From: Stutzerimonas stutzeri TS44 | GTDB taxonomy: Bacteria > Pseudomonadota > Gammaproteobacteria > Pseudomonadales > Pseudomonadaceae | Assembly: GCA_000263395.1 (NCBI GenBank) | Contig: AJXE01000020.1 | Coordinates: forward strand, 1-64,000 | Direction: 5' to 3' | Length of the DNA: 64,000 nt | Shown here: piece by piece, positions 1 to 42,676 of the stretch | Position numbering within the stretch: the stretch's first letter is position 1 | How the letters are laid out: each line of letters starts with the position of its first letter | The notes under the pieces: generated by a model | Database searches by the model: none | What the model saw: only the letters and a program-made list of their open reading frames with translations | What the model was told of the DNA's origin: nothing | Position numbers and translations under genes: made by a program

Positions 1-33
1 TTCACAAGCACCCACACGAATTGCTTGATTCAG

Positions 34-45
34 TTGTTAAAGAGC
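34..45 (-). promoter_or_regulatory. rRNA leader boxA antitermination site
   Basis: The minus strand reads GCTCTTTAACAA, the boxA sequence bound by the Nus antitermination complex in rRNA leaders. It lies about 40 nt downstream of the proximal promoter. This is the strongest evidence that a 16S-23S-5S operon starts just left of the window. Confidence 0.8.
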
Positions 46-82
46 GTTTCGATCAAGTCTTTCGTCTCAACCGAGGCCGCGC

Positions 83-110
83 ATTCTACAGCAGCCTTTC
101 TTTCTGTCAA
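83..110 (-). promoter_or_regulatory. rRNA operon promoter, downstream copy
   Basis: On the minus strand a consensus -35 TTGACA (105-110) and -10 TAGAAT (83-88) are 16 bp apart, followed by a G+C-rich discriminator typical of stringently controlled rRNA promoters. Transcription would run leftward into 16S rRNA beyond the window edge. Confidence 0.75.
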
Positions 111-293
111 GCTGTTTTTCGAAAATTTCTTTTCTACTCAATCGCTTGCCGCCTCGATCAATCTGCATCTCTCGTCAGCGGAAGGCGAATCATACAGCGT
201 TCAAAACCGCTGTCAACCACCTCTTTCAACCGCTTCCGATCACTCGATCGAAGCCACCAACAGGACTCAACCACCACCCTGCCAGCCCGGCGT

Positions 294-321
294 ATTCTAC
301 TCGAATCCGCCACCAGCGCAA
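294..321 (-). promoter_or_regulatory. rRNA operon promoter, upstream copy
   Basis: Read on the minus strand there is a -35 TTGCGC (316-321) and a -10 TAGAAT (294-299) separated by 16 bp. The same -10 and spacing recur in the downstream copy, as expected for tandem promoters of an rRNA operon transcribed leftward off the window. The assignment rests on this arrangement and on boxA near position 40. Confidence 0.6.
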
Positions 322-424
322 CTCTCAATCTCAAAGCAACTTGTTGATTTACAAGAACTTTTAGCCGAGGACTGCGCCAGAAGTGGTGCGCATTATAGGG
401 GGCTCAAAGTGTGCGTCAAGCCCC

Positions 425-1624
425 CTATTGCAATTTCAGCGAAATTCGCGCGAAAGCCTTCTTACCTGCCTGGCAGACATGGATCGCACCAGTACGGAAC
501 AGGAAGCTTCGATCAACAACCTGCCCGTCCACCCGAACTCCACCCGCACCTAAAAGGTCGCGCGCGACAGCAGCATTCTTCACCAACCCCGCCTTATTAA
601 GCACGGATGCAATGGGCATATCCTGATCGGCGACCAATTCGATCTCCGGAAGATCCTCCGGCAACTCGCCCTCTTTCATACGATTACCAGCCGAGCGATG
701 GGCTGTTGCCGCGGCCTCCTCGCCATGGAAGCGCGCCACGATTTCCTCCGCGAGTTTGATCTTGATATCCCGCGGATTCGCACCACGCTCGACATCCGCG
801 CGAAACGCACCGATCTCTTCGACGGTGCGAAAGCTGAGCAATTCAAAATACCGCCACATCAATGCATCGGGGATCGACACCAGCTTGCCGTACATCACTC
901 CCGGCGACTCTTGGATCCCGACGTAGTTGCCGAGCGACTTGGACATCTTCTTGACGCCATCCAGCCCCTCGAGCAAAGGCATCGTGACCACACATTGAGA
1001 TTCCTGACCATAGGCCCGCTGCAGTTCGCGCCCCATGAGCAGATTGAATTTCTGATCGGTCCCACCCAGCTCGATATCAGCCCTCAAGGCTACGGAGTCG
1101 TAACCCTGGACGAGTGGATAGAGGAACTCATGGATGGCTATGGACTGATTTGCAGCATAGCGCTTGCTGAAGTCGTCCCGCTCCAGCATGCGCGCCACGG
1201 TATATTGCGAGGCGAGGCGAATCATGTCCGACGGCTTGAGCTGATCCATCCAGGACGAGTTGAAGGCAACCTCAGTCTTTGCCGGATCCAGGATCTTGAA
1301 CACTTGCGCCTTGTATGTCTCGGCGTTCTCCAATACCTGATCACGAGTCAGCGGCGGTCTTGTCGCACTCTTGCCACTCGGATCACCAATCATTCCCGTG
1401 AAGTCGCCAATGAGGAAGATCACCTGATGCCCCAGATCCTGCAGCTGGCGCATCTTGTTGATGAGCACGGTATGCCCCAGGTGCAGATCAGGGGCCGTCG
1501 GATCAAATCCCGCCTTGACGCGCAGAGGCTCGCCGCGCTGCAGCTTGGCAATCAGCTCTGATTCGACGAGCACCTCGTCAGCGCCCCGCTTGATGACCGA
1601 CAACTGCTCCTCAACCGACCTCAT
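425..1624 (-). CDS. tyrS: tyrosyl-tRNA synthetase
   Basis: Cytoplasmic class I aminoacyl-tRNA synthetase that charges tRNA-Tyr with tyrosine using ATP. The 399-residue product has the HIGH-type motif (HLGHT) near residue 48, the KMSKS loop (KKMSKS) near residue 230, and a C-terminal S4-like RNA-binding region (around VDGQVVDRS). The ATG is preceded by GGAG at a good distance. It stands directly upstream of the rRNA promoters, the position of tyrZ in P. aeruginosa, which has two TyrRS genes; this copy is most likely the tyrZ type. Its 3' end lies about 100 bp before the upstream rRNA promoter. Confidence 0.95.
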
Positions 1625-1730
1625 GACAGGCTCCGCATCCAGAAATAAAGGGGCGCAAGCCTTACAAGATCATGTGAAAAATACAAGCATGACCCACAGC
1701 GCCGCTCGACGAGCGGGACGCACTCAAGGG

Positions 1731-1759
1731 TTGCCTCAGGCCGCCTTTGCTTATATTTT
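1731..1759 (+). promoter_or_regulatory. candidate sigma-70 promoter for the peptidase gene
   Basis: TTGCCT (1731-1736) and TATTTT (1754-1759) are 17 bp apart in the 150-bp divergent region between tyrS and the M23 peptidase gene. Fit to consensus is moderate, so this is a prediction only. Confidence 0.35.
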
Positions 1760-1798
1760 AGACAGTTATTTCCTGTGCAAAAACATGCCAGATACCTG

Positions 1799-4272
<2,474 letters not shown>

Positions 4273-31660: not shown

Positions 31661-32014
31661 ATGTCACTGCGATTCAAGGGCGCCGACCTACGCCCTGTGT
31701 TGACCGAAGCGATCGCCAACCAGTGCCGAGCCGTCCTCGTCAAGGACCAAGGCGTGTACATCCTCGCCGAGCGCGGGGAACGCCGCCCGGACGGACGCCA
31801 GAAGTTGCTGGCCTATGCAGTCGGCTGCGACCCGGATACCGATCCGTTCGATGACTGGTGGTTCCTCGCCCAACGCGAGCTGGGCGGCGACGACTTCGCC
31901 GAGTACTTCGACCCGAAGGACGGCGTATTCACCCGCATCTTGCACACAGCGGACGATCTGATGCTGTCGGCCACCGCCACCCACTTGTCGTTGGAGGTCG
32001 TGCCTCCCGTGTAA
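31661..32014 (+). CDS. DUF3085-family protein
   Basis: A 117-residue protein recognised as DUF3085, common on conjugative elements and of unknown function. The family blocks LRFKGADLRPVL, VLVKDQGVYILAERGER and AVGCDPDTDPFDDWW are all present. It is soluble and acidic. AGGAG precedes the ATG. A strong terminator follows. Confidence 0.75.
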   Translation: MSLRFKGADLRPVLTEAIANQCRAVLVKDQGVYILAERGERRPDGRQKLLAYAVGCDPDTDPFDDWWFLAQRELGGDDFAEYFDPKDGVFTRILHTADDLMLSATATHLSLEVVPPV

Positions 32015-32035
32015 AGCAGCAGCACGTCCTGCTCA

Positions 32036-32063
32036 GCCCCCGGTTCCCCGGGGGCATTCTTTC
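32036..32063 (+). terminator. intrinsic terminator
   Basis: GCCCCCGG and CCGGGGGC close a TTCC loop, followed by ATTCTTTCC. Confidence 0.75.
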
Positions 32064-32160
32064 CTCCGCACCGCGGCTATGTCCCCGCGTGCGCGCTCGT
32101 CTCCGGCCGCCAAGGCCTGCCTCGCCGGTCAGCCCGCCGGCATGCCACTGGAGACGACGC

Positions 32161-33003
32161 ATGCACGACCCGTTCAAGATCACCCAGCCCACCTGCATCA
32201 GCTTCAGCGGCGGGCGCACGAGCGCCTACATGCTCTGGCGCGTGCTGCAGACCAATGGCGGCCTGCCTGCCGATACCGTGGTCTGCTTCGCCAACACGGG
32301 CAAGGAAGTCGAAGCGACCTTGCGCTTTGTGCGCGATTGCGCCGAGCACTGGCAGGTGCCGATCCGCTGGCTCGAATACGTGCCCATGGAACCGGGCTTC
32401 GCTCTGATCGACTTCGATCGGGCCAGCCGCCAGGGCGAGCCGTTCGAGGCGCTGATCCGCAAACGCCAGTACCTGCCCAATCCCGTTGCGCGGGGCTGCA
32501 CGACCAGCCTGAAGATTCGCCCGATGCACCGCTTCCTGCGGCATCTGGGATGGACGGACTGGGACCAGATGATCGGCATCCGCGCCGATGAGCATCGACG
32601 CGTCTCCAAGATTCGTGCGCGTGGCCACTCCACCGAATCGACCCACGAGACCATGTGCATGCCGCTGGCGGATGCCGGCGTCACAGTGCGCGACGTGAGC
32701 GCGTTCTGGCAGGCACAGCCGTTCGACCTCGACCTGCTGACGGTGAACGGACGCACGCTCGAAGGCAACTGCGACCTGTGTTTCCTCAAGCCGCGTGGGC
32801 AGCGCCTGGCCCTTATCAAGGCCCGGCCCGAGGCCGCCGTGTGGTGGATTCGCATGGAATCCCTGAACCTGGCGAGCAAGCCCAGCGGCGCCCGGTTCCG
32901 CGCCGATGGCCCCAGCTATGCCGATCTGGCGCGCTTCGCTGCCGACCAAGGCGATCTGTTCGATGGCGCCGAGGAAGCCATTGCCTGCTTCTGCGGCGAC
33001 TGA
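32161..33003 (+). CDS. PP-loop (PAPS reductase-like) ATP pyrophosphatase family protein
   Basis: A 280-residue protein of the adenine-nucleotide alpha-hydrolase superfamily. The PP-loop SFSGGRTSAY (residues 14-23) differs from the common SGGKDS in having Arg-Thr. Cysteines in ARGCTTSLK, NCDLCFLK and IACFCGD could bind a metal or iron-sulfur cluster. Relatives include PAPS reductase and DndC, which activate substrates by adenylation; here the substrate is unknown, and a role in nucleic-acid or sulfur modification is only inferred. It overlaps the next gene start (TGATG). Confidence 0.75.
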   Translation: MHDPFKITQPTCISFSGGRTSAYMLWRVLQTNGGLPADTVVCFANTGKEVEATLRFVRDCAEHWQVPIRWLEYVPMEPGFALIDFDRASRQGEPFEALIRKRQYLPNPVARGCTTSLKIRPMHRFLRHLGWTDWDQMIGIRADEHRRVSKIRARGHSTESTHETMCMPLADAGVTVRDVSAFWQAQPFDLDLLTVNGRTLEGNCDLCFLKPRGQRLALIKARPEAAVWWIRMESLNLASKPSGARFRADGPSYADLARFAADQGDLFDGAEEAIACFCGD

Positions 33004-33562: not shown

Positions 33563-33690
33563 GCTGACGTTGTCAGCGACATGCCAGGCAACCATCGGTC
33601 ATCGAGGTTGCGGCGCAGTTCCCACTGCGTGACCGAGCCAGCTCGCACCGCATCCGTCCGCGAGCGGCCACCAGTGATGGTGGCGGATGC
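33563..33690 (+). ncRNA. radC-motif-like structured leader RNA, copy C
   Basis: Stem 1 GCTGAC/GTCAGC (33563-33577), ACATGCCAG, stem 2 GCAACC/GGTTGC, stem 3 GCAGT/ACTGC, stem 4 CTCGC/GCGAG with GCATC in the loop, stem 5 CCACCA/TGGTGG (GTGA loop), and 3' GGATGC (33685-33690) complementary to that loop. It stands 89 nt before the STY4534 gene. Confidence 0.8.
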
Positions 33691-33779
33691 TTTCGCCTTT
33701 TCAACCCACCGCGGGGTTACGCACCTTCCCCGCATGCGTGGGCCTGGTGTGTCTCCGCTTCTTCCAATGGAGATTCACC

Positions 33780-34697
33780 ATGAACACCACTTCCAACGAG
33801 AAATCATATTTCGACCTTCACACCTCGGGCATCGGCTACATCCAACGTGCCCGTGAAGTGCCTGTCCGGGGCGGCCGCCGTGCGCAGCCCTTCTTGGCAT
33901 GCACCATCGCCGCACTGGTCGGTTCCGCCAAGGACCCCAGTTACCGCTACTTCGACGTCAAGGTCTCGGGTGCCGAGGCCAAGAAACTGGTCCAGCGCTA
34001 CATCGGCGTTGACGATCCCAAGCAGCGCCCGCTGGTGCGCTTTCGCCTCGGCGACCTGTGGGGCGATGCGTACATCCGCGACAAGGGTGAGCACAAGGGC
34101 CAGGCCGCCGCGTCCCTCAAGGCGCGACTGCTCAAGGCCGAGCCGCTCGACCGGGCCGAACTGGCTTCGATCAAGCAGCACGAGCTGATCACCCGCGGCA
34201 TCGGCTACCTCAGCCGTCCGAAGGACGTCACCCGCAAGGATGGCGATCCGTTCCTGTCGTGCAGCGTCGCGGCGCTGGCCGGGCCTGTCGGTGAACCGGA
34301 ATATCGGTACTTCGACACCATCGTCGCTACCCCTGAAGCCGAGCACCTGGTTCGCCGGTGCGTGCAGGCCATCGAAGGGGACCGCAAGGTGCTGATCGCC
34401 TTCCGTCTGAACGACATGAAGATCGATCCGTACATCCGCACCAAAGGCGAGCGCGCCGGGGAACCGGGAGCGAGCCTTGAATCGACGCTGGTCCACATCG
34501 GTCTCATCAAGATCGACGGCACCCAGGTCTATCCGACGAGCCAGGCGCAAGCCGAGGCGCCGCAGGCCGAGGACGCACCCGCGCCCGAAGCCGAGGTTGC
34601 CGCCGAAATCGCTGCCGACCAATCTGCCGAACCCGCCGAGCGCGAGCCGGAAGGTGAAGCCGAGGAGCAGGAGCCGGAACTGGCTGCTTCGTTCTGA
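33780..34697 (+). CDS. STY4534-family (DUF3577) ICE replication protein, duplicated domain
   Basis: A 305-residue protein of the DUF3577/STY4534 family, thought to act in ICE replication. The usual domain is present twice: residues about 17-125 and 137-245 both start GIGY, contain a PFL(A/S)C segment and a (Y)RYFD motif, and end with (D/I)-x-YIR-x-KGE plus a SL stretch. An acidic tail (EAPQAEDAPAPEAE onward) closes the protein. A stem (33746-33756 with 33769-33779) can mask the ribosome site. Confidence 0.8.
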   Translation: MNTTSNEKSYFDLHTSGIGYIQRAREVPVRGGRRAQPFLACTIAALVGSAKDPSYRYFDVKVSGAEAKKLVQRYIGVDDPKQRPLVRFRLGDLWGDAYIRDKGEHKGQAAASLKARLLKAEPLDRAELASIKQHELITRGIGYLSRPKDVTRKDGDPFLSCSVAALAGPVGEPEYRYFDTIVATPEAEHLVRRCVQAIEGDRKVLIAFRLNDMKIDPYIRTKGERAGEPGASLESTLVHIGLIKIDGTQVYPTSQAQAEAPQAEDAPAPEAEVAAEIAADQSAEPAEREPEGEAEEQEPELAASF

Positions 34698-34705
34698 TCC
34701 GGCAT

Positions 34706-34731
34706 GGCCCCTCACGGGGCCTTGCCTTTTT
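34706..34731 (+). terminator. terminator-like hairpin
   Basis: GGCCCC and GGGGCC close a TCAC loop, followed by TTGCCTTTTT, 24 nt before the next start codon. Confidence 0.65.
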
Positions 34732-34754
34732 CCTATTTCCCAAGGAGAACCATC

Positions 34755-35444
34755 ATGGCAGCCACATCGGCACCTACGAGATCAGTCCTGCCCATCGTCG
34801 TCCCGGGCCAGCTCACGTTGCGGACCATCCGCGGCAAGAACGGCCCGTTCACGGTCGGTCGTCTGACCACCCCCATCGGCGAGTTCGCCGTCAAGGACGC
34901 GGAGCTGGAGCAGTACCCCGAAGGCAAGTACGACGGGGAATTCGTCATTCGCTATATCTTCGCCAAGTCCTATCCGGTCGCGGGCGGCGCGCGGTTTGAA
35001 GTTCGCGCCAACCTCGACGGTATGACGCTCAACGGCATCGACAAACTGAGCCGTGACGAGGCCCGCAGCTTCGCCACCCAGGAGGTCGATCCCCTTGACG
35101 AAGAGCAAGGGACGCAGCCTGCGGCAACGCCGGCCAAACCTGCCAAAACATCCAGGCCCGCCAAGCCCGCACCCGTGCTGGCGTCCGCGGACCCGCTGGT
35201 CGATACCACGCCCTTCGGTGTGGATGCGCCGACACCCGCTGCGGCTGCTGCCCCCGGCAGCACCGAAGATGGCGACGCTGCACTGTTCGGCCTGCTGTGG
35301 CCGCTGGGAGAATCCGTAAAGCTGGATTCGACCATCGACCGCCGCACCCTGCGCGCGCAGATCGTTCGCCTGGGCGAACTTGGCTACGCGCTGGACTTCA
35401 AGACCCAGGAGTGGAGCCGCCAGGCCGAACTGCAACCTGCGTGA
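34755..35444 (+). CDS. DUF3275-family ICE protein
   Basis: A 229-residue protein recognised as DUF3275. The N-terminal domain (LTLRTIRGKNGPFTVGRLTTPIGEFAVKD, GKYDGEFVIRYIFAKSY) has the single-strand-binding-like beta pattern typical of the family. A proline/alanine linker (about 118-165) leads to a short C-terminal domain (DRRTLRAQIVRLGELGYALDF). Function unknown; often encoded next to STY4534. Confidence 0.75.
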   Translation: MAATSAPTRSVLPIVVPGQLTLRTIRGKNGPFTVGRLTTPIGEFAVKDAELEQYPEGKYDGEFVIRYIFAKSYPVAGGARFEVRANLDGMTLNGIDKLSRDEARSFATQEVDPLDEEQGTQPAATPAKPAKTSRPAKPAPVLASADPLVDTTPFGVDAPTPAAAAAPGSTEDGDAALFGLLWPLGESVKLDSTIDRRTLRAQIVRLGELGYALDFKTQEWSRQAELQPA

Positions 35445-36729: not shown

Positions 36730-37380
36730 ATGCCCGCAGACACTTCTTCCACCACGCTTTACCGCATCGACGAATGCCCCGACGTGATGGCCGACGCTTG
36801 CGTCGGCGATGACCAAGGCAACCTCGTCTTCCTCTCGATCTGGGCGCGGGACACCGCCGTCCAGCAGTTCCTCGCTCGCCTGACCCTCGGGCGCGACGAG
36901 CAGGGACTGGACCAGTTCCACGTCATCACCGACCAGGGCGGCAGCGTCCCGGTGTTCATCGGCAACGTCGATCGTCTGGAAAAGCGCATGACTCGCGCCT
37001 ACCGACGAACGCTGTTCGGATCGCTCTCCAACGTGTGGCTGTTCGATCGTCGCTGCGTGAAGCCCGACAAGGCCGACGCCAGCGCGCTCGCACTGCTGCC
37101 ACGCGGCAACGCCCACCGGCTTGACCGCATGTGGACGCTGGTGCGGGACACCTGCCCGTTGCCGCTGCTCGATCACTGGCGCGAGACCGTGCTGGAACTG
37201 CTGCAAACCCGCGAGATGCTGGCCCGCCTTCCGTTCGCCCTCGGGCCACTGGAAGGTCATCGGCTCGCCATCGACGTGCCGGCGCTGACCCTGGCGCTGG
37301 GCTCCTTGATCCGCAGTGACGTACTCACCGCCTATCCCTATCCGGCCAAGATTTGGACGCCGGAAGCGGTAGCGGCTTGA
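36730..37380 (+). CDS. uncharacterised ICE protein
   Basis: A 216-residue soluble protein I do not recognise. It contains GNVDRLEKRMTRAYRRTLFG and LDRMWTLVRDTCPLPLLDHW, features of a conserved hypothetical protein of this ICE class. No catalytic motif is evident. A hairpin (36673-36691) lies in its leader and a perfect 12-bp hairpin follows it. Confidence 0.65.
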   Translation: MPADTSSTTLYRIDECPDVMADACVGDDQGNLVFLSIWARDTAVQQFLARLTLGRDEQGLDQFHVITDQGGSVPVFIGNVDRLEKRMTRAYRRTLFGSLSNVWLFDRRCVKPDKADASALALLPRGNAHRLDRMWTLVRDTCPLPLLDHWRETVLELLQTREMLARLPFALGPLEGHRLAIDVPALTLALGSLIRSDVLTAYPYPAKIWTPEAVAA

Positions 37381-37444: not shown

Positions 37445-38554
37445 ATGGCCCTCATGTTCCCGCGGCTCGCCCGCAATTTCGTGAAAAACGGATACTTCCC
37501 CACGGATGAACCCACGCTCGAAAGAGCCCTCAACGCACTGATGCCCAGCGACGGGTCGATGTGCATCCTCGATCCCTGCGCAGGCGAAGGCGTGGCGATC
37601 GCCGAAGCTGCTCATGCCCTCGGGCGCGAGCAGGTAAAGGCGTTCGCGGTCGAGTTCGACGCCGAGCGGGCACGCCATGCCCGCGGCCTGGTCGATCATT
37701 GCCTGCATGCGGACCTCATGGACGCGATGATCTCCAAACAGTCGTTCGGGCTGCTCTGGCTCAACCCACCGTATGGCAACCTGTCCAAGGACGTCAACGG
37801 CAATATCGGTTATCAGGGACAGGGCCGTGCCCGCCTCGAAAAACTGTTCTATCAGCGCAGCCTGTCGCTGTTGCAGTACGGCGGCGTGCTGGTCTTCATC
37901 GTCCCCGGCTACGTGCTCGACGCGGAGCTGGTCGGCTGGCTGACGCGCCACTACACCGACCTGCGGATCTACCGAGCGGCGGAAACGCAGTTCAAGCAGG
38001 TGGTGATCTTCGGTCGCAGGGTGCGTCAGCGCGAGCAGGCACCCGATGGCGTCAAGGCCGTGCGCAATCTGCTGCTGCAGGTTGGGCTTGGCGAAGTCGA
38101 AGCCGAGGAACTGCCGAGCGATTGGCCGTTCCTGCCGTACATCGTCCCCGCCAGTCCGGCCGAGCCGGAGCATTTCTTCCGCGTGACGATGGAGCCGGAG
38201 CAGTTCGCCGATGAGGTTGGTCGGCTGCAAGGCCTCTGGCCGTCGCTGGACACGCACCTGGGGGCCGCGCAGCAATCGCTGCGTCCACCGGCGCGTGCCT
38301 TGTCCCACTGGCATCTCGCCCTGGCTCTGGCCGCGGGCGCGATCTCGGGGGTTGTGCGCTCCAAGACCGGGCGCGTGCTCGTCGTCAAAGGTGACACCCA
38401 CAAGGACAAGACACTCCAGCGGGAATTCACCGAACGCGAAGACGGCTCCATCGCCGAGACCCGCATCCTCACCGACAAGTTCGTGCCTGTCATCCGCGCG
38501 TGGGACATGACGCCTAGCTCCGCTACGCGGGGCGAGGTGTTGACCATCCGCTGA
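37445..38554 (+). CDS. DUF6094-type SAM-dependent methyltransferase (NPPY)
   Basis: A 369-residue protein with the SAM site ILDPCAGEGVAIAEAA (about 42-57) and the catalytic NPPY motif in LLWLNPPYGNLSKD (about residue 105), the signature of N6-adenine DNA or glutamine methyltransferases. The C-terminal half (EPEHFFRVTMEPEQFADEV, then LALALAAGAISGVV) matches the DUF6094 layout. It directly precedes an SNF2-type helicase, so modification coupled to DNA translocation is possible. No nuclease is seen. Confidence 0.75.
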   Translation: MALMFPRLARNFVKNGYFPTDEPTLERALNALMPSDGSMCILDPCAGEGVAIAEAAHALGREQVKAFAVEFDAERARHARGLVDHCLHADLMDAMISKQSFGLLWLNPPYGNLSKDVNGNIGYQGQGRARLEKLFYQRSLSLLQYGGVLVFIVPGYVLDAELVGWLTRHYTDLRIYRAAETQFKQVVIFGRRVRQREQAPDGVKAVRNLLLQVGLGEVEAEELPSDWPFLPYIVPASPAEPEHFFRVTMEPEQFADEVGRLQGLWPSLDTHLGAAQQSLRPPARALSHWHLALALAAGAISGVVRSKTGRVLVVKGDTHKDKTLQREFTEREDGSIAETRILTDKFVPVIRAWDMTPSSATRGEVLTIR

Positions 38555-38566
38555 TCGCTTTTCACC

Positions 38567-38586
38567 GACGGTTCGCCGTCTTTTTT
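38567..38586 (+). terminator. intrinsic terminator
   Basis: GACGG and CCGTC close a TTCG loop, followed by six T, between the methyltransferase and helicase genes. Confidence 0.75.
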
Positions 38587-38594
38587 CCCACCAC

Positions 38595-38653
38595 GGGGCA
38601 TGCCATCGCCCCGTCGGGGGTGATGCATGCCCCATTTTCTTTGGAGCATCACC
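38595..38653 (+). promoter_or_regulatory. two-state helicase leader
   Basis: GGGGCATG (38595-38602) can pair with CATGCCCC (38626-38633). Alternatively GGTGATGC (38619-38626) pairs perfectly with GCATCACC (38646-38653), which touches the ATG and covers the TTGGAG ribosome site. The two stems share base 38626, so they cannot form fully together. Confidence 0.6.
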
Positions 38654-40933
38654 ATGTCCCTCGATCTCGAAACCACCACCGCCGAAGCCACGTCCGTACA
38701 GGGCGAACTGCTCGACGCGGAATCTTCCCCACTGACGCTGAGCCTTCAGGATTTCGTCGGTGAGTTCGGCGACGAACTGCTCGACGCCCTCAACAGCGCC
38801 AACCCGCCGGTCTATTCCGGCGAGCCGCAGGCGCACCGGCAACTCATCGTCGCCAGCCTCAAGCGCAAGCTGTTCCAGGCCCAGGCCGAAGTCGTCCATG
38901 CCGCCGCCGAGCTGCTGATCGACCGTGGCGAGCGCGCCGCGATCGTCAATGGCGAAATGGGCTGCGGCAAGACGACCGTCGGCATCGCCACGGCCGCCGT
39001 CCTCAACGCCGAAGGCTACCGCCGAACCTTAGTTCTTTCGCCACCTCATTTGGTTTACAAGTGGCGGCGCGAGATCCAAGAGACGGTGGCAGGCGCCAAG
39101 GTCTGGGTGCTCAACGGCCCGGACACGCTGGTCAAGCTCATCAAGCTGCGCGAGCAGATGGGTGTGCAGCCCACGGGCCAGGAGTTCTTTGTCCTGGGGC
39201 GCGTCAGGATGCGGATGGGATTCCACTGGAAGCCTGTCTTCACCACGCGGCGCACTCGCCATGGCGACGTGGCAGCGTGCCCTGACTGCGGTACGGTCAT
39301 CACCGACCTCGACGGCGAGCCGGTCAACCCGGTCGCGCTCCAAGCCGAGGAATACCGCAGGAAGTGCAGCCATTGCGCCGCGCCCCTGTGGACGCTGATC
39401 CGCCCGCGCAGCCTGTCCGGCAGCGACCAGTCCTCGGCAGTGCTGAAAGCCCTCAAGCGCATCCCGACCATCGGGGAAGTCACCGCGCAGAAGCTGATGC
39501 AGAAGTTCGGCGACGGGTTCCTGGCGTCGATGCTGGGCGACAACATCCACGAGTTCATCAACCTCATGGATGGCAACGGCGAGCTGGTTTTTTCCGATCG
39601 TCAGGCCACGCGCATGGAACGTGCGATGGCCAACATGGAGTTTGGATTCGGTGAGGGTGGCTACCAGCCGTCCGAGTTCATCAAGCGCTACCTGCCACAA
39701 GGCACGTTCGACCTGCTCATCGCCGACGAGGCGCACGAGTACAAGAACGGCGGTAGCGCCCAAGGCCAGGCCATGGGCGTGCTGGCGGCGAAGGCTCGCA
39801 AGACCTTGCTGCTGACCGGCACGCTGATGGGCGGATACGGGGACGATCTTTTCTATCTGCTGTTCCGCGCCTTGCCTGGGCGGATGATCGAAGACGGCTA
39901 CCGCCCGACCACGAGCGGGAGCATGACCTCGGCCGCGATGGCGTTCATGAGGGACCACGGGGTCCTCAAGGACATTTACTCCGAAAGCGCCGGCACGGCG
40001 CACAAGACGGCCAGGGGCACCAAGGTATCGGTGCGCACGGTCAAGGCTCCCGGCTTCGGGCCGAAAGGGGTCTTGCGGTGCATCCTGCCGTTCACGATTT
40101 TCCTCAAGCTCAAGGACATCGGTGGCAACGTCCTGCCGCCGTATGACGAGGAGTTTCGTGAAGTCCAGATGGACGTGGCGCAAGCCGCGGCCTACCGTGA
40201 CCTGGCGGGTCGGCTGACCGCGGAGCTGAAACAGGCTCTGGCGCGACGCGACACGACGCTGCTGGGTGTGGTGCTCAACGTGCTGCTGGCCTGGCCGGAT
40301 TGCTGCTTCAGGTCGGAGACCGTGGTGCATCCGCGCACGCGCAACACCTTGGCGTTCGTCCCGGCTCAGTTCAACGAGTTCGAGGTGACGCCGAAAGAGC
40401 GCGAGCTGATCGACATCTGCAAGGAAGAGAAGGCGCAGGGCCGGAAGGTCCTGGCCTACACGGTCTATACCGGCACACGCGACACCACGTCGCGTCTGAA
40501 GATGCTGCTGGAGCAGGAAGGCTTCAAGGTCGCGGTGCTACGCGCGAGCGTGGACGCCAGCCGCCGCGAGGACTGGATCGCCGAGCAGTTGGACCGTGGC
40601 ATCGACGTGCTCATCACCAACCCCGAGCTTGTGAAAACGGGACTGGACCTGTTGGAGTTTCCGACGATCGTGTTCATGCAGTCGGGCTACAACGTGTATT
40701 CGCTCCAGCAGGCGGCACGCCGCTCATGGCGCATCGGGCAGAAACTGCACGTGCGCGTGATCTACCTCGGCTACGCCGGTTCCTCGCAGATGACCTGCCT
40801 TGAACTGATGGCCAAGAAGATCATGGTCTCGCAGTCCACCTCGGGCGACGTGCCCGAATCCGGGCTGGATGTGCTCAACCAAGACGGTGATTCCGTCGAG
40901 GTCGCACTGGCCCGGCAACTAGTCGCCGCCTGA
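38654..40933 (+). CDS. SNF2-type helicase with inserted zinc ribbon
   Basis: A 759-residue superfamily 2 ATPase. Walker A is NGEMGCGKTTVGIAT (about residue 100), the DEAH box LLIADEAHEYKN (about 355), motif III LLLTGTLMGGY, and the C-terminal RecA domain ends with QAARRSWRIGQ. Between motifs I and II is an insert with two CxxC pairs (CPDCGTVI and CSHCAAPL, about 209-246), a likely zinc ribbon. It probably moves along double-stranded DNA. It follows the NPPY methyltransferase gene. Confidence 0.85.
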   Translation: MSLDLETTTAEATSVQGELLDAESSPLTLSLQDFVGEFGDELLDALNSANPPVYSGEPQAHRQLIVASLKRKLFQAQAEVVHAAAELLIDRGERAAIVNGEMGCGKTTVGIATAAVLNAEGYRRTLVLSPPHLVYKWRREIQETVAGAKVWVLNGPDTLVKLIKLREQMGVQPTGQEFFVLGRVRMRMGFHWKPVFTTRRTRHGDVAACPDCGTVITDLDGEPVNPVALQAEEYRRKCSHCAAPLWTLIRPRSLSGSDQSSAVLKALKRIPTIGEVTAQKLMQKFGDGFLASMLGDNIHEFINLMDGNGELVFSDRQATRMERAMANMEFGFGEGGYQPSEFIKRYLPQGTFDLLIADEAHEYKNGGSAQGQAMGVLAAKARKTLLLTGTLMGGYGDDLFYLLFRALPGRMIEDGYRPTTSGSMTSAAMAFMRDHGVLKDIYSESAGTAHKTARGTKVSVRTVKAPGFGPKGVLRCILPFTIFLKLKDIGGNVLPPYDEEFREVQMDVAQAAAYRDLAGRLTAELKQALARRDTTLLGVVLNVLLAWPDCCFRSETVVHPRTRNTLAFVPAQFNEFEVTPKERELIDICKEEKAQGRKVLAYTVYTGTRDTTSRLKMLLEQEGFKVAVLRASVDASRREDWIAEQLDRGIDVLITNPELVKTGLDLLEFPTIVFMQSGYNVYSLQQAARRSWRIGQKLHVRVIYLGYAGSSQMTCLELMAKKIMVSQSTSGDVPESGLDVLNQDGDSVEVALARQLVAA

Positions 40934-41024: not shown

Positions 41025-41046
41025 TTCCTATCCCAAGGAGAGTTTC

Positions 41047-41916
41047 ATGAACACCCATATCCAAGCCAGGCCCGAAACCGTCAATGCTCGCCTGACGCTA
41101 GACGTGACCTATCTGCTCAACGGCGAGGCCGCGCTGGAAATGCTGGCACGGCTACAACGCATGTGCGAACACGCCATCGGCGAGGGTCTGCTGACTGGCG
41201 AGACCGCCGCGGAAGTAGATACCTGGTCGCTCGATGTGTCTAGGGTGTCCTCGGCGGCTGACCGCGAAGCCCTGGAAGCCGAGATCGCCACCTTCATGCA
41301 ACAGCGCATCGAGGACGGCAACCTTGGCGCAGAGGACATTCCTGTGCGCCTGGCGCGCTATGGCCTGATGGCCCCCCAGGCATTCGCCGATGAAATGCGC
41401 GAGCGCATGGGGATGGCTGACAAAGCCCCCTCGGGCCAAGCCCTCATTCTCTCGACCGAAACTGCCGACGGCAGCGAGATTGAGATGCAAGTCGCGGTCG
41501 CCTGCACCAATGCCTCCGGTAGCCCCGACGTGCCGGTCTTCAAAGTCAGGATCACTCAGGAGGAATACGACCTGGGTATCCACTACGCCAAAGCCAAAGA
41601 TTTGGCCGAAGAAGCCCGTTATGAAGGGCCGTTTGTCTGCTTCGACGCTGCCGAATATGGCCTCATCCTGTCAGCGGCTCGTGAACTGGGCCTTGTCCCG
41701 CAGGTCGTCGTGGTCGATATGACCGACGGCCAGATCCACTCCATCCGCTGCGACAGCGGCGAGATCAAGGTCATCTGCTACGACACGAGCGACGCCGAAG
41801 AGTATTCGGTGGCGGTTGCGAACCGGCCGCTCGGCGAGAACGGCCAGTTCGTGCGCTGCTGGTCGCACACCCAACTGGCACAGGTCGATCCCGGTCTGAA
41901 GCTGGCTCGGGATTGA
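41047..41916 (+). CDS. uncharacterised ICE protein
   Basis: A 289-residue soluble acidic protein of unknown function. The N-terminal third (LTLDVTYLLNGEAALEMLARLQRM) is helical; the remainder includes FKVRITQEEYDLGIHYAKAKDLAEEARYEGPFVCFD. It ends the cargo cassette and is separated from the transfer genes by a strong terminator. No family recognised. Confidence 0.65.
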   Translation: MNTHIQARPETVNARLTLDVTYLLNGEAALEMLARLQRMCEHAIGEGLLTGETAAEVDTWSLDVSRVSSAADREALEAEIATFMQQRIEDGNLGAEDIPVRLARYGLMAPQAFADEMRERMGMADKAPSGQALILSTETADGSEIEMQVAVACTNASGSPDVPVFKVRITQEEYDLGIHYAKAKDLAEEARYEGPFVCFDAAEYGLILSAARELGLVPQVVVVDMTDGQIHSIRCDSGEIKVICYDTSDAEEYSVAVANRPLGENGQFVRCWSHTQLAQVDPGLKLARD

Positions 41917-41944
41917 TTCAGCGCGCTCGATGTGCGTTTTCACT

Positions 41945-41969
41945 GGCCCCTTCGGGGGCCTTTTTCTTT
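41945..41969 (+). terminator. intrinsic terminator at the end of the cargo cassette
   Basis: GGCCCC and GGGGCC close a TTCG loop, followed by TTTTTCTTT. Confidence 0.85.
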
Positions 41970-42006
41970 GGAGGGAGGCTGTCGGTAAATCGGGCGCTGC
42001 CTGGTT

Positions 42007-42040
42007 CGCATTGTTTGCTGCCGCTCGTGGCCCGAGCGGC
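42007..42040 (+). promoter_or_regulatory. shared CGCATTGTTTG element and hairpin before the pilL operon
   Basis: CGCATTGTTTG (42007-42017) is followed by a perfect 8-bp hairpin GCCGCTCG/CGAGCGGC (42020-42040). The same 11-mer lies before the TIGR03757 gene (58010-58020), and ATTGTTTG lies before the RAQPRD gene (48669-48676), so it looks like a common promoter or activator element for transfer units. Confidence 0.5.
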
Positions 42041-42055
42041 GATGGTGAGGGCTCG

Positions 42056-42676
42056 ATGTTTCAGGACGCCGAGCTTATGTGCCCCTCTCCACCTTGGTTT
42101 CACCATCCCGAACGCCGCCTGCTGGCGGGAGTCCTCGGCCTGCTCTGGTCGGTGCTGGCTGGTGGCTGCGCGACGACGACTGCGCCGCCCGCGCCCGATG
42201 CCTTCGAGGAAGTCTTGGCCGCGCCGGAATCCGAGGCGCCCGAGTACATCCCCGTCGTGCGCTACGGTCGCTACACGCTGGTCGAGCTGGCACCCACGGC
42301 GGCGCAGCGGGACCTGCTGTTGCAGACCATCGACGTGTCCATGCCCGAAGATGCCCGTGCCACCGTCGGCGATGGGCTGCGGCATGTGCTCAAGCGCAGC
42401 GGTTACAGCCTATGCCAGACGGCGCACGCGGTGATCGAGCTGTACGCGCTGCCGCTGCCGGCGGCGCACTTGCACCTCGGCCCCATGACCTTGCGCGATG
42501 CGCTGCTCACACTGGCTGGCCCCGCCTGGGAACTGCACGTGGATGATCGCGCACGGCAGATTTGCTTCGAACGGCCTGCCGACAGCGCGGCCATCGAACC
42601 CGCATCCGAGTCACCCGCCGCCGAGGCGGTGCAGACGTTCCCGCTGGAGCCTTCTGTTTCGGGAGGCCAGCCATGA
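42056..42676 (+). CDS. PilL-type ICE lipoprotein (TIGR03748-like)
   Basis: A 206-residue outer-membrane lipoprotein of the conjugation apparatus, PilL N-terminal family. A signal peptide with lipobox (LAGGC) ends near residue 38; conserved parts are YIPVVRYGRYTLVEL and HLGPMTLRDALLTLAGPAW. The ATG at 42056 follows GGTGAGGG; an internal ATG at 42077 is an alternative. It opens the transfer operon and overlaps the next gene by 4 nt. Confidence 0.8.
   Translation: MFQDAELMCPSPPWFHHPERRLLAGVLGLLWSVLAGGCATTTAPPAPDAFEEVLAAPESEAPEYIPVVRYGRYTLVELAPTAAQRDLLLQTIDVSMPEDARATVGDGLRHVLKRSGYSLCQTAHAVIELYALPLPAAHLHLGPMTLRDALLTLAGPAWELHVDDRARQICFERPADSAAIEPASESPAAEAVQTFPLEPSVSGGQP

Follow-up and report, generated by a model that had tools for sequence, protein, structure and literature searches.

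The class 1 DISARM gene set includes DrmD and DrmMI, and the locus described here resembles it in having an SNF2 motor adjoining an adenine methylase. Such a pairing also defines the "methylase-helicase dyad" of polyvalent proteins, proposed from DarB of phage P1, for which Iyer et al. proposed a role in antirestriction (PMC5512222). A third point of reference is ICEclc, a model for a widespread ICE family, whose authors report conserved core regions that can be deleted with no measurable effect on isogenic transfer (PMC9286271).

In the window, i.e. the whole stretch of 64,000 nucleotides analysed from Stutzerimonas stutzeri TS44 (contig AJXE01000020.1), a methylase gene (37445-38554) and an SNF2-type motor gene (38654-40933) are neighbours on a conjugative genomic island. 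Both are core genes of an ICEclc-family conjugative element. We tentatively propose, at just under an even chance, that they form a split methylase-translocase unit, which would most likely mark the element's DNA, allowing it to survive on entering a new host.

The methylase and the motor

The methylase gene starts at the ATG at 37445, preceded by an AGGAG ribosome site, and has the following features:

37445-38554, + strand: DUF6094 gamma-class DNA adenine-type methyltransferase, 369 aa (Pfam, profile, fold, alignment)
37490-37504, + strand: motif X "GYFPT", residues 16-20, the N-terminal TP motif of gamma-class adenine methylases, as described in PMC5512222
37571-37591, + strand: SAM-binding motif I "DPCAGEG", residues 43-49 (sequence, alignment)
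37763-37774, + strand: catalytic motif IV "NPPY", residues 107-110 (sequence, alignment)
38030-38299, + strand: residues 196-285, the stretch most divergent in distant comparisons (pairwise identity)

The score against PF19587 (DUF6094) was 93.8 bits for a gathering cut-off of 22.8 (E 1.2e-26) and, with NPPY in place, bears out the claim of a DUF6094 NPPY methyltransferase made in a sequence-only reading of this DNA. The DNA adenine methylase M.BseCI ranked first by both profile and fold, with M.TaqI close behind, and a cytosine-methylase control for the profile was negative (0.15%). The likeness to these enzymes lies in the catalytic fold and the motif order X-I-IV; the M.BseCI match is limited to the catalytic part (profile stretch 22-194), and the fold match covers ~220 columns with a TM of 0.42 on the query. 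The C-terminal part differs, the divergent stretch being only ~90 residues long. Residues 196-285 show 44% identity with P. veronii, versus 64-73% elsewhere in the methylase, and 22% with A. fischeri, versus 32-44% elsewhere; they may constitute a small specificity region. Taken together, motifs and predicted fold indicate an intact, gamma-class, M.TaqI/M.BseCI-like methylase of the adenine type. Near-duplicate, long or truncated sequences were left out of the alignments (12 of 58 candidates for alignment A3 and 6 of 47 for A4).

For the motor gene, the ATG at 38654, which has a GGAG site, is the most likely start, in preference to 38627. Its features are:

38654-40933, + strand: SNF2-type SF2 ATPase/translocase (Pfam, profile, fold), ICEclc ORF75419 by coordinates
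38960-38974, + strand: motif I, Walker A GCGKT, residues 102-106 numbered from base 38657 (sequence, alignment)
39278-39376, + strand: zinc ribbon C-x2-C ... C-x2-C (C208, C211, C237, C240), between motifs I and II
39458-39514, + strand: helix-hairpin-helix-like segment (our naming), residues 268-286, in the same insert as the zinc ribbon
39725-39736, + strand: motif II DEAH, residues 357-360 (sequence, alignment)
40706-40741, + strand: motif VI "QQAARRSWRIGQ" (sequence)

The protein scored above the Pfam cut-offs for ResIII, SNF2-rel_dom (33.2 bits versus 24.9) and Helicase_C. A Snf2/Rad54-family helicase ranked first in the profile search, and SNF2 remodellers led the fold matches, among which ZorD came at rank 42; the predicted fold is specifically SNF2-like and places the motor in the SNF2 clade. 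With these Pfam matches and the cysteine pairs 208/211 and 237/240, the earlier description of a helicase carrying a zinc ribbon between motifs I and II stands. The statement that no nuclease is present also holds for the pair, a Pfam scan of both proteins having returned no nuclease domain.

The insert between motifs I and II spans ~250 residues and holds both the zinc ribbon and the helix-hairpin-helix-like segment. In an alignment of 41 sequences, fused viral proteins among them, the four cysteines show either no variation or at least 90% conservation, and all 80 ICE-family helicases from the best 80 of 419 loci contain "PTIGxxxAxxL" as well as RRSWRIGQ in motif VI. The predicted model is poor over the helix-hairpin-helix-like segment, which is missing from the shorter insert of the Thermus and Thermoanaerobacterium helicases. 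Both genes are under purifying selection: when compared with 13 relatives, 25 of the 26 dN/dS values lie at 0.06-0.22, and the outlier, the methylase of locus L040 (0.42), resembles a C-terminal frameshift. This selection and the intact catalytic motifs support the reading of the two proteins as a unit.

Correspondence with ICEclc and distribution of relatives

With a single offset, 16 of 26 published ICEclc ORF numbers fell exactly on stop codons of the window, one was off by one base and nine were unmatched (seven of these upstream of ORF83350), compared with only 3 of 26 for the next-best offset. These exact stop matches identify the helicase as ICEclc ORF75419, and the methylase is probably the ICEclc gene whose stop maps to 77798. 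Gene order and coordinates are those of the ICEclc core, with these neighbours:

33687-34697, + strand: DUF3577/STY4534-family ICE protein, ICEclc ORF81655, opening the published 8.5 kb transcript
34704-35444, + strand: DUF3275 ICE protein, a conserved neighbour (73/80 loci, best 80 of 419)
36730-37380, + strand: 216-aa protein with no assigned function, directly upstream of the methylase (79/80 loci, best 80 of 419)
41041-41916, + strand: protein with no assigned function, ICEclc ORF74436, ending the 8.5 kb transcript (similar protein in only 14/80 loci, best 80 of 419)
41930-42676, + strand: PilL2 (TIGR03748), ICEclc ORF73676 (profile match, coordinates)

Both genes map by coordinates, with other core genes, onto the proposed 8.5 kb transcript of ICEclc, ORF81655-74436 (PMC2892462). 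Paraburkholderia xenovorans LB400 carries an identical helicase (100%) and a nearly identical methylase (99.5%). The words "helicase", "methylase" and "methyltransferase" do not occur in the main texts of PMC2892462, PMC9286271 and PMC13098234.

Of 419 confirmed genome loci, the best 80 were kept; every one of these had both genes and at least one ICE marker. A single match covered at least 300 methylase residues in 78 of them; the exceptions were the frameshifted L040 and L078, in which the methylase is cut by a contig end. Since the kept loci are all close relatives (helicase identity at least 88%), these counts are uninformative on distant ones, which are covered by plasmids and viral contigs. 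A general chromosomal gene family was rejected, as a search of 398 genomes from the phylum found DUF6094 in just 4.

For plasmids, 40 listed of 83 helicase records were compared by eye with 60 listed of 66 methylase records, and a methylase match lay on the same record in 37 of the 40 helicase plasmids. Geobacter and Geoalkalibacter plasmids encode methylase and motor in one fused gene; on several Bacillota plasmids the two genes lie ~6-41 kb apart, and the stretch fetched from a Thermus aquaticus plasmid contains the helicase gene but lacks one for DUF6094. Among 44 viral contigs seeded with the methylase, 39 had a helicase within ~8 kb of it (28 in one frame with the methylase first, 11 separate). 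Seeding with the helicase gave a methylase in only 3 of 53 viral loci, which were the three best matches; the other 50 were weak (E 2e-14 or worse). On LR745208, a 485-kb uncultured phage record, both matches lie on one strand less than 3 kb apart. That the large contigs are viral is only weakly suggested by a protein scan, in which 4 of 10 flanking proteins from four of them matched PHROGs families. All relatives seen are on mobile elements: ICEs, plasmids and viral contigs.

Among the best 80 of 419 loci, a ~100-aa "GDWG" protein is encoded between methylase and helicase in one copy (39 loci) or two copies (31 loci), and is absent from the other 10, LB400 among them. It also occurs in three plasmid records with no annotated DUF6094 gene within 4-5 kb. 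We therefore rejected it as an obligatory third part; its patchy occurrence makes it at most accessory.

Relation to DarB and proposed function

The pair shares with the DarB dyad a predicted gamma-class adenine-type methylase with TP and NPP(Y/F) motifs and a coupled SNF2-clade motor, the methylase preceding the motor in fusions, on phages and conjugative elements. The coupling, in one polypeptide or as a conserved neighbourhood, is observed on mobile elements. In contrast to DarB, the TS44 methylase and motor are separate genes, and the motor has a zinc ribbon between motifs I and II, whereas DarB (2255 aa, with NVPF instead of NPP(Y/F)) lacks any CxxC. The LPD36 domain that precedes the methylase in DarB is absent, as only 15 residues precede the GYFPT/TP motif. 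When aligned with the motor, a different SNF2-family helicase encoded in this genome did better (99.7%, E 3e-25) than DarB (97.2%, E 3e-11), and the likeness of the methylase to DarB is weak (74%), so that kinship with this proven antirestriction protein is not specific and specific descent from it is unsupported. By its sequence, the pair qualifies as a "methylase-helicase dyad" in which the methylase lacks LPD36 and the motor carries a zinc ribbon.

In the split methylase-translocase unit that we propose, the motor would load on element DNA, perhaps via the zinc-ribbon insert, and move along the duplex carrying the methylase, which would mark adenines by methylation, perhaps with little sequence preference. 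Upon conjugation, the transferred strand would bring these marks into the recipient, so that second-strand synthesis there would leave hemimethylated DNA, expected to be poorly cut by restriction enzymes; a benefit would be visible only with restricting, non-isogenic recipients. Deleting ICEclc ORF81655-75419, a region extending beyond the methylase and helicase, reportedly did not measurably alter transfer from P. putida into isogenic cells (PMC9286271), which disfavours a transfer-essential role. Such dispensability is consistent with antirestriction marking, an effect that isogenic matings would fail to show, and we infer an antirestriction activity for the pair. In favour of the proposal, ORF75419 mRNA on 3-chlorobenzoate is reported to climb from 4.5 (early stationary phase) to 28 (72 h) (PMC2892462). 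Against it, this mRNA is present in exponential phase (7.5 on 3-chlorobenzoate, 7.3 on succinate) and showed no increase after 24 h of stationary phase on glucose (2.8), fructose (3.9) or succinate (3), so that the pair is not limited strictly to cells competent for transfer.

The proposal names two ICEclc core genes and says why an isogenic assay would miss their function. It extends the methylase-motor theme of DarB to a second family, on conjugative elements and large viral contigs, with a bearing on how these cross restriction barriers. We consider a bolder version rather unlikely, in which DUF6094 and the zinc-ribbon SNF2 motor would form a DNA-stamping machine distinct from DarB and common to ICEs, plasmids of multiple phyla and very large phages. 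The motor would thread along incoming or outgoing element DNA and the methylase would mark adenines with almost no regard to sequence, which would broadly protect the DNA from many restriction systems. If this were true, the pair would account for the so far unexplained function of the ORF81655-75419 region, which is conserved yet "dispensable".

Other possible roles of the pair

A role in DNA processing, in which a Rad54-like motor and the methylase help the element, once excised or on its way in, to replicate, be repaired or recombine, is unlikely. In its favour, the motor belongs to the Snf2/Rad54 type, TopB and the STY4528/STY4534 "replication" proteins are encoded on the ICE, and several distant relatives lie near SSB, Rad52, RecT or DnaN genes on some plasmids. 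However, repair alone would leave the conserved methylase partner unexplained, and the deletion that caused no measurable change in transfer belongs to a set in which all ICEclc deletions gave similar proportions of transfer-competent cells (PMC9286271).

We regard as improbable a role in defence or superinfection exclusion, whereby a nuclease-less DISARM-, BREX- or Type III-like module would mark self and block phages or other elements. PADLOC gave weak matches to mad2 (2.9e-15), ZorD (2e-13), BrxH (1.4e-9) and DrmD (9e-9), and ZorD is among the fold matches; nevertheless, the NCBIfam scores are far under the curated cut-offs (33.3 bits versus 610 for DrmD, 18 versus 1500 for ZorD), and the DISARM, Zorya and Dpd models match only as generic motor domains. 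The mad2 match is partial (profile 269-443 of 492), and neither mad genes nor DrmA, DrmB or DrmC are among the matches listed for the ten neighbouring ORFs (for one protein, the best 25 of 51). In these ten ORFs, PADLOC matched only a cytosine methylase, best as a type II/orphan enzyme but also as DrmMII (5e-14; best 25 of 51 matches), and an SspD/BrxP-like reductase, both on the same ICE, and found no complete defence system. EcoP1I Res does not align with the motor (probability 1.6%), and the fusion of methylase and motor on large viral contigs also argues against defence. With partners missing, scores low and the pair devoid of a nuclease domain, we set aside the anti-phage part of the sequence-only reading, DISARM-like or Type III-like, whereas the self-protection or antirestriction that it offered as another possibility is the best-supported reading.

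Epigenetic regulation, with the methylase controlling ICE genes and the motor opening DNA for it, is very improbable: the methylase has no restriction partner and shares a transcript with ICE core genes, but transfer-competent cells made up a similar proportion after the deletion (PMC9286271).

The DUF6094 methylase and its zinc-ribbon motor

The pair consists of the following two genes:

37445-38554, + strand: DUF6094 methylase, 369 aa (PF19587, E 1.2e-26)
38654-40933, + strand: SF2 ATPase (helicase) with intact Walker A, DEAH and RRSWRIGQ motifs

The sequence-only reading had described a DUF6094 NPPY methylase and an SF2 ATPase with a zinc ribbon between motifs I and II, and this description was borne out. 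The methylase carries motif X (GYFPT), motif I (DPCAGEG) and NPPY, and the zinc ribbon of the helicase (C-x2-C...C-x2-C) is placed between motifs I and II. The methylase start (ATG at 37445) is preceded by AGGAG, and among the candidate helicase starts 38654 has the strongest ribosome site (GGAG).

AlphaFold models had a mean pLDDT of 82 and a pTM of 0.65 for the methylase, and 77 and 0.73 for the helicase, in which most of residues 249-335, the insert past the zinc ribbon, is poorly modelled. The top structure matches of the methylase were M.BseCI and M.TaqI (TM ~0.4 on the query, with only the catalytic part aligned); these two also ranked first and third by profile, second place going to a chain annotated as a putative ribosomal protein L11 methyltransferase. 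For the helicase, SNF2 remodellers were the first structure matches and 1z63, 'helicase of the snf2/rad54 family', the first profile match.

Comparison of the window with 13 relatives gave dN/dS values of 0.06-0.14 for the helicase and 0.08-0.22 for the methylase, except for 0.42 with L040. This locus comes from a Cellvibrionaceae MAG; its helicase is intact, and its methylase frame (L040:8747-9847) is apparently shifted near the C-terminus. Among the best 80 of 419 confirmed genome loci, all close relatives (helicase identity at least 88%), the motor motifs GxGKT, DEAH and RRSWRIGQ were found in 80, and the methylase motifs in 79 (the exception, L078, is cut by a contig end); 75 keep the zinc pattern CPDC...CxxC exactly. 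Methylase residues 196-285 form the most variable stretch in distant comparisons and may serve as a small specificity region.

Pairing in genomes, plasmids and viral contigs

In each of these best 80 of 419 loci, a methylase match lies upstream of the helicase (covering at least 300 residues in 78) and at least one ICE marker is present. The match-to-match distance is 109-166 bases in 9 loci, 430-558 in 39, 903-976 in 31 and 2158 in 1; most of this variation arises because zero (10 loci), one (39) or two (31) copies of a ~100-aa protein separate the two genes. This protein carries 'RHLxGDWGDL...LPSEY' (e.g. L053:9135-9446, L053:9550-9855 and L007:21171-21455, in loci of two relatives); it had no match in the window, no Pfam match for two copies checked and no PHROG match for one. 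Among the records listed, P. veronii and six Pseudomonas/Stutzerimonas plasmid records, including NC_019202, which we take to be pKLC102, have it within the gene annotated as DUF6094. Matches occur in 121 plasmid records, of which Vibrio accounts for 63, and many of the listed Vibrio matches bear the label 'type I restriction endonuclease subunit M'.

The helicase was found in 83 plasmid records and the methylase in 66. Of the 40 helicase records listed, 37 recur among the 60 listed methylase records. On two of the three other listed helicase plasmids a DUF6094 gene is annotated nearby, and the third, from Thermus aquaticus, has none annotated in the stretch examined. T. aquaticus pTA69 (helicase at L148:6001-8043) keeps nearby SSB, SWIM and Rad52 genes, as in T. 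oshimai. The two genes lie ~6-41 kb apart on several Bacillota plasmids, and their order is reversed in T. oshimai and Malaciobacter.

A single gene holds both parts in Geobacter anodireducens pSD and Geoalkalibacter pGSUB1. A methylase-seeded scan of viral contigs gave 44 loci, 39 with a helicase relative, either in the same open frame (28) or as a distinct gene in the same orientation (11); the other five had none in the stretch examined, one of which ends at the methylase. In each of the 28 fused frames NPPY comes ahead of those motor motifs that were found; two of these frames lack the exact Walker A pattern, and 25 are non-redundant by a rough word-sharing measure. Eighteen of the 44 contigs are 100-529 kb long, 15 of these with the fused form. 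Counting against this pairing, a viral scan seeded with the helicase gave 53 loci, with a methylase only in the three best (one fused).

Correspondence to ICEclc and proposed function

The window carries the ICE markers ParB TIGR03764, STY4528, PFL_4669, TopB, DUF3577/STY4534, DUF3275, PilL2, TraD, PFL_4703, TraC, TIGR03755, DUF3158, DUF2857 and TraG_N. ICEclc ORF names are coordinates in AJ617740 (PMC2892462), and a name probably gives the lower coordinate of a gene on the minus strand. With one offset, 16 of 26 published ORF numbers fall exactly on window stop codons, one is off by one base and nine are unmatched; the next-best offset matches 3 of 26. The resulting identities are by coordinates, not by ICEclc sequence:

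ORF81655: window DUF3577 gene
ORF75419: window helicase
ORF74436: gene after the helicase
ORF73676: window PilL2

The methylase stop maps to ICEclc 77798. In Paraburkholderia xenovorans LB400, the helicase is 100% and the methylase 99.5% identical to those of the window.

A transcript of an estimated 8.5 kb extends from upstream of ORF81655 to ORF74436 (PMC2892462), and orf91884-orf74436 are termed core genes of unknown function (PMC13098234). On 3-chlorobenzoate, ORF75419 mRNA was reported at 7.5 in exponential and 4.5 in early stationary phase, then climbed through 8.7, 11.1, 14 and 20.5 to 28 at 72 h; with other carbon sources, the values after 24 h of stationary phase were 3 (succinate), 3.9 (fructose) and 2.8 (glucose) (PMC2892462). 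The ORF81655 promoter is part of the late transfer-competence regulon, active in a small subpopulation; transfer to an isogenic recipient was not measurably changed by deletion of ORF81655-75419, within which the methylase stop falls, whereas deletion of ORF74436-68241 abolished it, and proportions of transfer-competent cells were similar among the deletions (PMC9286271).

By analogy, the pair most likely works as the methylase-helicase dyad of Iyer et al., proposed to act on invading DNA in discrimination or antirestriction (PMC5512222). Like that dyad, it ties a gamma-class methylase to an SNF2-type motor, on elements that enter cells as foreign DNA and without a nuclease of its own. Adenine-type marks placed in the donor would be carried on the transferred strand, giving hemimethylated DNA in the recipient; the sequence specificity of marking may be low, and the zinc ribbon may help the motor to load on element DNA. 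The transfer result fits antirestriction, because donor and isogenic recipient have one modification pattern in common, so that the element would escape restriction there; the deletion includes neighbouring genes and thus does not isolate the pair. Speaking against the proposal, the helicase transcript is already present in exponential phase (PMC2892462). The SSB, Rad52, RecT and DnaN genes near some distant relatives would also fit a role in replication or repair. In alignments, DarB matched the motor less well than did another SNF2-family helicase from the same genome, so membership in the DarB family proper is not claimed; the LPD36 domain of DarB is also absent from the pair.

The methylase-motor principle is already known; what appears new is this DUF6094 and zinc-ribbon-motor family, its ICEclc core identity and the fusions on large viral contigs. 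The literature searched, which covers few subscription papers, gave no mention of DUF6094 and only PMC2892462 for ORF75419 with ICEclc. The family was not named among the matches listed on ICEclc helicase/methyltransferase or huge-phage SNF2 helicases, nor among those on conjugative anti-restriction or orphan methyltransferases with SNF2; given this coverage, all these negatives are weak evidence of absence.

Other features of the window

The left end of the window (1-4272) is occupied by housekeeping genes, for AnmK and an M23 endopeptidase relative, so the ICE-chromosome boundary is probably between there and ~16 kb; a tRNA search of the 64,000 nt found none. The same ICE encodes a second methylase, a cytosine-5 DNA methylase (PF00145; 25735-27336, + strand), and plasmids of Malaciobacter and Sutcliffiella likewise have cytosine methylases close to DUF6094. 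At 31858-33003 (+ strand), a PAPS-reductase-domain protein (PF01507) matches SspD, a model for DNA phosphorothioation, at E 1.4e-13; it is matched in 22 of the best 80 of 419 loci, and a gene of this family also lies near DUF6094 in the Sutcliffiella locus L151.
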